A stretch of DNA of 40,555 bases from Patescibacteria group bacterium (GTDB lineage: Bacteria > Patescibacteriota > Minisyncoccia > Phycocordibacterales > JACZSL01): NCBI GenBank assembly GCA_022561335.1, contig JADFRL010000006.1, positions 1 to 40,555 on the forward strand. Direction: 5' to 3'. Under the pieces are notes generated by a model, which searched no databases, was not told the origin of the DNA, and worked only from the letters and a program-made list of their open reading frames with translations. Below, in pieces: positions 15,655 to 30,209 of the stretch. Position 1 is the first letter of the stretch; each line of letters opens with the position of its first letter. The translations under genes were made by a program, and so were the position numbers.

Positions 15655-15969
15655 CTCATTTTATCATTTTAGCGAAGTTCTGTCGTAGAGGAAACCTCTT
15701 GTAACTATTTTTCCCGTCAAAGCCAGATTTCCTGTTTGAAATGTCTTACGCAGTCCATTTTTTTCTATGAGAGCGAGGGTTTCTATTTGAAATACCACGG
15801 GCAGTTCCCTTTTCTCGCCAAAGCGAGGGTATTCCATTTTCAAAACCTCGCGCAGGGCAAGCAAGCATGGTTCTCGACTAAGAAGGGATTGCTTAGCCGA
15901 GCGGAGCACAAAATTTGCGCTGGCAAATTTTAATGCGTGTTTTGAAAATGGATATATCTGAGCGACCCT
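15655..15969 (-). repeat. Repeat array A: four ~51-nt units (three clear, one degenerate) plus a leader beginning at the rnc stop codon
   Basis: Units 15805-15855, 15754-15804 and 15703-15753 are exactly 51 nt each, with a degenerate unit at about 15655-15702. Minus-strand consensus resembles CTGCgnnAGG-(palindromic A/T core)-nCCTCGCTTT....GAAAAnGGA. Confidence 0.85.
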
Positions 15970-24683: not shown

Positions 24684-24950
24684 AAGGCCTCCCGCCGCCC
24701 AAGCGAAAGTTAGTCATCTTAGAACCTTTCGCAGCTCTTTTATTTCATGCCTGAGCAAGGATTCCTCTTTGAAATGCCTTACATTTTTCAGTAAAGCAAG
24801 GATTGTTTTTTAGAAAACCTCACGGAGCTCCCTCTTCCCGTTAAAACGAGGGTTTCTATTTGAAATGCCTTGCACAGTGCGACGGCGCGAGCAGAGCAAA
24901 TTTTCAGTAGAAAATTATGTGTGTATTTCAAATAGAAATCCGAGTGCCCC
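24684..24950 (-). repeat. Repeat array B: about four units related to array A plus a leader beginning at the gyrB stop codon
   Basis: Units ~24828-24877, ~24784-24827 (shortened), ~24735-24783 and ~24684-24734 share AGCnAGG(G/A)TT...GAAAT/CCT...CAG with array A. Confidence 0.8.
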
Positions 24951-27200
<2,250 letters not shown>

Positions 27201-27848: not shown

Positions 27849-30209
27849 TTATCGTATTTTCCAAACTGCTTTCGACTCAAGTTTCTTAGTAATGTTTTCT
27901 ATAACTCTGTTTATCTCGGTATCAGACAATGTTTTTTCCTGTGATTGAAAGACAAGTCTAAATGCATACGATATTTTCTCATCTTTCTTATACGTATCAA
28001 AAAGTGTAACCCTCACGAGTAACTCTCCTGCTTCTTTTTTTATTGCTTTAAGCACCTCGCCATCTCGTACATTTTTTGGCACCCAGACGGCAATATCACG
28101 CAATACAAAAGGATACATCGATATGATCTGATACAGTATCTTCTTCGGTTCTCTCTCGACACGTCTATACGTTTCAGGCTGTGGCAGTTTTTCAAGAACT
28201 TCATCGAAATTTATTTCAAAAATACCGTCTTTTATTTCCCCCTTTATTTCGACTCTAAGTTCCTTTGAAATCAGTGCAATCATATTCTTTACTTCATCAT
28301 CATCTTCCTCTTTCTTGCCTTTCTTAGTGTTGCGTATACCAAGAGCAAATGAGGTATACTCCTTTTCCTGTTTAAAAACGGTCCCATATCCAAAAATATT
28401 AATCACCTGAAGCCCTAAAAGATCAGCGTAGTGCGCATTAAATTCTAGACTCTCCCCTATCCCCTCCCGTAAATTGCTACGAAGCCAATTCTTGTCAGAA
28501 GCTAAGGCGTTTTCTAGTTCTACTTCTCCACTGCCCCGAAACGTATACGTATACACTTCACTGAAACCTCTCTCTTCAAGCAAGTTTCTGATTTGTTCTC
28601 CATAGTAAAATCGCTTGTTTACAATTACATCTGTATCGAGCTTCCTTAGTGTATCAGATGCAATGTTTTCGTAGCCGTAAATCCGTCCGATTTCTTCAAT
28701 TAAATCTTCCTTAATACGTAAATCGAGTCGTTCAAAGGGCACGGTGATCACATATCGAGCATTATTATCAGTCATGCGCCGATATCCAACAATATTTTTA
28801 AAATCAGGACTCTTATCGAGCTTCTCGATTACCACCTTTCCTTTACTGTCCTTGCCAGATGCATGAATCACTTTCCCCTCTCCTAGATACAAACCGCAAT
28901 GGCTCACACCCGTAGGAACATCAGTCCCGGGCATAAAAATGATCGTCTTGTGATGAATTTGATCTGCATCACCACCAACAGAAAAAACGAGATCCCCCGG
29001 CTGGACGCTCTCTTCATTTATTTTTTGTCCATAGACGAATTGATCGACAGAAATACGGGGAATACCGACGCCGCCTTCTATGAACAGATGGCGCGTGAAC
29101 GAAGAACAGTCAAAGGTCGCTGTTCCGTCATAGGCAAGACTTGAAAAATATTTATATGGAGTTCCTACATAGGCGGGCGCAAGACTCAGTACCGTATCTA
29201 CAGGTCTTACTTTTTTATACTCGAAGCCAAGTCGATCTAAAATATCCTCTACACCCCTTTCCTCCATATGTGAGCCGAGCAACTTATTAATCTCGGTAAT
29301 TGATACTCCCAACTTATAGGGTCCGGGCTTCCGAGGAAAAAAATCAACGTAACCAGCAAGCTTCCCCCCAGCAATATCTAGGATAAGTTCTACCGCATAA
29401 CAAAGCGCTGGCTCTGTCAATTGAACAGGTAGCTCATTTTCAAAACGCGTCGATGCATCAGTGCGAAGTTTCAGTGACTTTGATGTCCTGCGCACACTAA
29501 CCGGATTAAAATTCGCGCACTCTATAATAAGATTCTTCGTAGTACTATCAATTTCAGCAGCCTTTCCCCCTTTAACGCCGGCTATACCTATTGGTCGGCC
29601 GCTTTGACCATCTGTTACAAGCACGTTACTTTCGATGAGTTCATACTTCTCCCCGGTCAACACGGTCAGACTCTCACCCTCTTTTGCGTTCCTAACAGTT
29701 ATCGTGTACCTGCCATTCTTTTGAACCAACTTACCACTGTCAAACGCGTGAAGTGGCTGGCCAAGATCGAACATTACATAATTAGTCGCATCAACAATAT
29801 TATTGATAGATTTTTGGCCAAGTGCCAGAAGATGATCTTTAAGCCAGGTGGGTGTCGGACCGACAGAGACACCTTCAATAACTGCAGCGCTAAAACGTCT
29901 GCACAGTGTATTGTCCTCTACAATCACTTCAAGCAAATTTGTAGTGGGCTCAAGAATTCTATTTTCAGAGAGGATATCCTTTTTAAGCGGGAGATCCAGT
30001 ATCGTCGAAATTTCTTTAGCTATCCCCCGATGTGAAAGACAGTCATGAGCCCGATTAGGCAGCACGTCAACGTCAAGAACTGAATCATTCTCAATTTCTT
30101 CAACCCCTTCAACTTCAAAGGCGTGAAATGTCAATATACGGGCAAGCTTGTCTGACTTGGGAAGCGGTTTGTCAAAGTATTTTTGGAGCCATTGTTTGCT
30201 AACGAGCAT
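27849..30209 (-). CDS. pheT: Phenylalanyl-tRNA synthetase beta subunit with an inserted NlpC/P60 domain
   Basis: B3/B4-like N-terminal half, B5 (SITEINKLLGSHMEERGVEDILDRLGFEYKKV ... YVITVPFERLDLRIKEDLIEEIGRIYGYENI), C-terminal ferredoxin-fold anticodon-binding domain; NlpC/P60 between the two B5 halves. Confidence 0.95.
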   Translation of the reverse strand: MLVSKQWLQKYFDKPLPKSDKLARILTFHAFEVEGVEEIENDSVLDVDVLPNRAHDCLSHRGIAKEISTILDLPLKKDILSENRILEPTTNLLEVIVEDNTLCRRFSAAVIEGVSVGPTPTWLKDHLLALGQKSINNIVDATNYVMFDLGQPLHAFDSGKLVQKNGRYTITVRNAKEGESLTVLTGEKYELIESNVLVTDGQSGRPIGIAGVKGGKAAEIDSTTKNLIIECANFNPVSVRRTSKSLKLRTDASTRFENELPVQLTEPALCYAVELILDIAGGKLAGYVDFFPRKPGPYKLGVSITEINKLLGSHMEERGVEDILDRLGFEYKKVRPVDTVLSLAPAYVGTPYKYFSSLAYDGTATFDCSSFTRHLFIEGGVGIPRISVDQFVYGQKINEESVQPGDLVFSVGGDADQIHHKTIIFMPGTDVPTGVSHCGLYLGEGKVIHASGKDSKGKVVIEKLDKSPDFKNIVGYRRMTDNNARYVITVPFERLDLRIKEDLIEEIGRIYGYENIASDTLRKLDTDVIVNKRFYYGEQIRNLLEERGFSEVYTYTFRGSGEVELENALASDKNWLRSNLREGIGESLEFNAHYADLLGLQVINIFGYGTVFKQEKEYTSFALGIRNTKKGKKEEDDDEVKNMIALISKELRVEIKGEIKDGIFEINFDEVLEKLPQPETYRRVEREPKKILYQIISMYPFVLRDIAVWVPKNVRDGEVLKAIKKEAGELLVRVTLFDTYKKDEKISYAFRLVFQSQEKTLSDTEINRVIENITKKLESKAVWKIR

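Follow-up and report, generated by a model that had tools for sequence, protein, structure and literature searches.

The repeat array next to gyrB in the window (the whole 40,555-nt stretch of DNA analysed here) raises the question of whether its complementary parts belong to an array that grows by copying or to a structure kept by selection. A sequence-only reading had described the locus as a leader with an array of units, the second copy of a system also present after rnc, and had offered both explanations.

The elements after gyrB and rnc and their shared fold

In array B, the core of unit 1 (TTTCTATTTGAAAT, nt. 24853–24866) and its 14-nt perfect complement at nt. 24925–24938 can be read directly from the sequence, exactly as first described. 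A covariance model made from 25 loci (model R1) matches a complete element with a core of ~86 nt on the + strand of this site (nt. 24854–24939; 99.9 bits, E-value 1.2e-25). Its 5′ arm (the unit-1 core, nt. 24854–24868) forms a locus-specific stem with the 3′ arm (nt. 24923–24937), formerly termed the leader arm. Between them lie the 5′ strand of the junction helix P2 (CTTGC, nt. 24869–24873; partner GCAG, nt. 24891–24894), the covarying side hairpin 1 (GTGC GACG GCGC, nt. 24877–24888), a conserved linker (GAGCAGAGCA, nt. 24889–24898), the final bases of which pair with nt. 24919–24920, and side hairpin 2 (AATTTTC AGTA GAAAATT, nt. 24899–24916), which is the inner leader hairpin of the earlier account and has a covarying stem. 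The loop of side hairpin 2 is conserved as A-N-N-A, with AGCA in 79 of 102 copies. The motif GCTC(C/T)GCTCG, reported before unit 1 at both loci, is likewise real and represents the conserved cap linker on the opposite strand, where GAGCAGAGCA reads as GCTCTGCTCG. With its outer box (ACGAGG ... CCGAGTG, containing tandem G.A mismatches), the entire hairpin spans nt. 24846–24946 (+), and its base lies a few nucleotides from the stop codon of the Pfam-confirmed gyrB (nt. 24951–24953). The + strand folds far better than shuffled sequences, with z-scores of -6.8 (RNA) and -6.9 (DNA), and the - strand gave weaker values of -4.6 and -4.5, respectively.

Array A lies downstream of rnc (RNase III by Pfam) and holds a pair of its own, TCCATTTTCAAAAC at nt. 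15833 with nt. 15939, so that, as the sequence-only reading had held, the pairing sequences differ between the two arrays and pairing is kept in both. Element A is complete (nt. 15832–15955, +; 45.4 bits with model R1) and carries a longer side hairpin 1. Such an extension, of ~20–45 nt, was noted in some copies (nt. 15855–15905 in the window; L076, 1485–1613; L206, 1555–1673; L096, 6049–6156). Within the window, 14-bp perfect inverted pairs at a spacing of 1–150 nt occur at six places, two of which are arrays A and B, and 20 random windows (order-1) contained none at the same spacing; the remaining four are likely ordinary terminators.

Across 28 loci that we read, a ~56-nt conserved cap is carried on arms that are locus-specific yet complementary. 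In the fold, the arms form a stem of 15 bp, joined by a short helix at the junction and by the two side hairpins, the second of which is extended by two pairs; the cap is thus a conserved three-way junction with two side hairpins on a locus-specific stem. In an alignment of 25 loci, 26 of 32 structure pairs had at least one sequence in which both partners had changed, 92.5% of cells paired (71.4% in shuffles), and double-change cells numbered 155 (43 in shuffles), counts that are favoured by the structure having been set out by hand from these same sequences. This signal was lost when the pairing partners were slid along the alignment, and RNAalifold, unaided, returned essentially the same fold (30 pairs, 24 with double changes). 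In the junction helix P2, a C-G pair is replaced by A-U in 4 of the 25 loci, and own arms scored a median of 17.8 against 2.2 for arms exchanged between loci. Pairing of the 3′ arm with unit 1, both side hairpins, and the junction helix covary across dozens of genomes, and selected structure, one of the two explanations first offered, is strongly supported by these comparisons of sequence. What had been taken for a leader with an array is mainly an ~86-nt core hairpin on a longer stem, the pairing of which stands and to which the array is secondary.

Distribution and the constrained strand

The genome from which the window derives contains at least five clear copies. A BLAST search with a 101-nt block found five related places besides array B, and model R1 found six places, the sixth being weak (27 bits). 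Unit 1 still pairs with the 3′ arm in five of the six loci that were compared by arm (13–17 matches of ~15–17), and the pairing is degraded in the other, C32 (11 matches), so the expectation that leader arms elsewhere would match their own unit 1 holds at all but one locus. At L011 of the same genome, a long hairpin (AAGGCAGTGTGCGG...CCGCACACTGCCTT, 1733–1836) sits between the RNase P RNA and a copy of the element.

By BLAST, 99 of 297 sampled genomes of the bacterial order (about one third) carry the element, and model R1 with stricter filters finds it in 23 of 287 sampled from the phylum as a whole; the two figures differ in method and sample and should not be compared. Distant families hold up to 12 copies. 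All 24 genomes of the genus g118 carry it, at 2–34 copies each. In three genomes, copies resemble each other more closely within the genome (medians 0.81–0.86) than between genomes (0.57), a pattern that does not extend to all genomes; in G087, copies are no more similar to one another than to those of different genomes. Rfam 15 gave no match at gathering scores, and seven loci remained without one at E ≤ 5; three exact letter patterns had no match in virus contigs, which bears on those letters alone. We found no earlier description in the open-access literature searched, a body that leaves most subscription journals outside it. Copies placed back to back with inverted orientation, a layout also known from REPIN/BIME pairs, were noted at G079:C4:55016/55146, G477:C65:1220/1379, G146:C37:34955/35079, and G591:C3:13758/13915.

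Mismatches in the stems point to one strand as the folded one. With gapped pairing and both strands scored alike over 51 non-redundant copies, G.T exceeded A.C (43 vs. 14; p = 1.5e-4, a value that is too small given that the copies are related) and G.A exceeded T.C (74 vs. 5), part of the latter excess being contributed by the conserved outer box (GCGAGG...CCGAGC). Isolated mismatches alone gave 30 G.T and 6 A.C, and the G.T/A.C bias was absent from an ungapped count of arm mismatches, in which the arms are out of register. Because G.T and G.A far exceed A.C and T.C, the + strand of the window is the folded, constrained strand, and the consensus folding term also favours it (-22.1 kcal/mol vs. 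-14.7 kcal/mol for the other strand).

Placement beside genes and turnover at dnaK

In 37 of 102 copies, the right-hand antisense gene has its stop codon no more than 15 nt from where the model ends on the 3′ side, and 5 copies show the mirror case (a sense stop codon at the 5′ end), counts made from lists compiled by hand, with genes taken as longest ORFs and a 15-nt limit picked post hoc. The commonest gene context is (-,-). The relatives of gyrB bear the labels Parcubacteria/Paceibacterota, which places the window in Patescibacteria; among 80 named relatives, three (L096, L114, and L124) have the element at the 3′ end of gyrB.

Such placement would suit a cis-acting 3′-end RNA, in which the hairpin ends or protects the neighbouring transcript or makes ribosomes slow down at the stop codon. 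In E. coli, ribosomes stall at REPs situated up to 15 nt from a stop codon (PMC12306157), the base of the present hairpin lies equally close in many copies, and at dnaK-dnaJ the element stands where some congeners have a plain terminator hairpin. However, the adjoining gene is mostly antisense to the constrained strand, and some copies sit 5′ of start codons (those of dnaK in L084, G146, and G591). The T run of an intrinsic terminator is also missing from the family as a whole: out of 101 copies, just 15 (+) and 19 (-) show TTTT where the hairpin ends, a minority that may qualify. A cis-acting 3′-UTR or terminator role is the main rival reading, although we consider it rather unlikely as the explanation of the family.

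A small RNA that acts in trans and is transcribed from the + strand of every copy would agree with the fold and with the G.T/G.A bias, both of which suit a + strand RNA. Against it, sense -10 boxes lie upstream of 49 of 102 copies and antisense boxes in the same stretch of 53, giving no excess, the (-,-) context prevails, and the copies have no stem sequence in common to serve as a fixed target site; we regard this explanation as improbable.

The growing array of the sequence-only reading, which would take on new units at its leader end through inverted copying of the leader-proximal unit, draws on the units that precede three elements (A, B, and C30b), on the fit of unit 1 to the 3′ arm, and on template switching, which is able to create and mend inverted repeats (PMC8794818). 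In array B, the upstream units are 5′-half fragments on the + strand, namely unit 4 (AAGCGAAAG ... CTTTCGCAG, nt. 24700–24733, by direct reading), unit 3 (nt. 24753–24783), and unit 2 (nt. 24793–24827), and in array A units 3 and 2 are two such fragments (nt. 15720–15804, +). Those of C30b are 5′-half fragments as well, and the match of the upstream units does not follow their own arm; unit 2 of array A has 14 matches to the arm of array B and 10 to that of array A. The exact half pattern occurs at only three places in this genome, two of them complete elements, and 5′-half units were found mainly in this genome, most loci elsewhere being single and without an array. The simplest reading of the upstream units is duplication debris, i.e., left-over 5′ halves. 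Since the helices of the cap itself also covary, arm copying would be insufficient, and growth by inverted copying is very improbable, with mostly single elements and, at the dnaK sites compared, no one-armed site.

These dnaK sites show turnover of the element. Upstream of dnaK in g118, a related genus, the element is present in one orientation in G146 and G591, in the opposite orientation in G575, and absent from seven genomes; flanks of filled and empty sites match on both sides, and neither arm is present at the empty sites. The whole palindrome is thus present or absent as a block, with no one-armed intermediate. Between dnaK and dnaJ, with sites sorted into classes by eye, the element is present in 9 of 20 genomes, the spacer is nearly absent from three, and the others have plain or different hairpins. 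The sister genomes G573 and G574 carry different elements at this site, and the distribution of the element here requires about 5–6 changes or more on the 20-genome tree; the entire spacer differs, hence there is no clean empty site here. The direction of change, gain or loss, is not fixed event by event, and loss of the element could be the source of some empty sites. The same intergenic sites beside dnaK were also seen to be occupied by further hairpin families that have long arms but another cap (L274, L285, L272, L283, L278, L280, and L289).

A candidate mobile hairpin and similar systems

We lean, by a modest degree, towards a non-autonomous, REP-like mobile hairpin that is recognised as one folded strand and constitutes a family unlisted in Rfam. 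Arrays A and B each end in a copy of this one small, probably mobile family, which may spread as REP/REPIN sequences do. One strand, in the form of ssDNA or possibly RNA, would fold, and a putative enzyme of the host or the element would read the conserved bases left unpaired. After insertion, only the fold would be constrained, so stem letters would change in compensating pairs, possibly aided by template-switch repair; mending one arm from the other in this way could help keep the arms paired, although repair alone would be insufficient since it leaves the mismatch bias and the conserved cap unexplained. Copies would be best kept where a stop codon directly precedes them, a position in which a long hairpin may be tolerated or may be useful as a 3′ end.

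As candidate drivers we considered two enzymes. The Y1 transposase is absent from the element-rich genomes G087, G172, and G421 and present in the element-free G027, G044, and G301; a search for Y1 (PF01797) in the element-bearing G087, G172, G421, G453, and G477 found none, and loss after spread is possible. Nor does the occurrence of reverse transcriptase follow that of the element, and no target duplication was identified at element copies. It is conceivable, if tentative, that the family belongs to a phylum-wide class of mobile elements defined by fold and not by end sequences, in which a folded single strand, its arms free to vary, is recognised by an uncharacterised Patescibacteria enzyme that is neither Y1 nor reverse transcriptase.

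The closest likeness is to the REP/BIME/REPIN sequences (RAYT, Y1, IS200/IS605-type), which are also non-autonomous, dispersed, multicopy extragenic palindromes with strand-specific hairpins, lie near stop codons, and sometimes form back-to-back inverted pairs. The element differs in several respects. REPs keep a conserved palindrome sequence within a genome, whereas here the arms differ per locus and the cap is conserved; the cap is a branched three-way junction, unlike REP/BIME/REPIN; copies number 2–34 per genome in g118, whereas REPs often exceed 100; the GT(A/G)G head that REPs have at the 5′ foot of the palindrome was not seen as a family feature on reading by eye, with GTAG in only a few copies; and the occurrence of the Y1 transposase does not follow that of the element. 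MITEs are likewise short, non-autonomous intergenic insertions with inverted repeats, but their transposase reads conserved terminal sequences, whereas the arms here vary and only their pairing is kept; conserved terminal repeats matching an autonomous transposon were not found, nor was an autonomous partner among Y1 and reverse transcriptase genes.

Mitochondrial double-hairpin and repetitive hairpin elements (PMC2800124, PMC7218506) are similarly compact, structured, intergenic, and apparently mobile; they belong to organelle genomes, and the likeness is one of description. TIGR repeat arrays have been reported from Patescibacteria (PMC12045711) and have a dual-repeat unit, which the element lacks. 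The Nop domain of Tas (PF01798) was found in none of nine element-bearing genomes, including that of the window, and we ruled out a TIGR-Tas identity on the lack of this gene in those nine (incomplete) genomes.

The family is still kept in the very small genomes of Patescibacteria, in as many as 34 copies, and its fold is legible from sequence alone; annotators gain a new family and a working covariance model. The pairs of filled and empty dnaK sites are natural material for how a fold-defined element moves, and, if the element acts at 3′ ends, it would bear on how transcripts end in these little-studied cells. Elsewhere in the window, we noted that a PheT-like protein (nt. 27849–30209, -) has an NlpC/P60 match (Pfam PF00877, residues 349–474, E-value 3e-15), which sits between its B3/4 and B5 regions.
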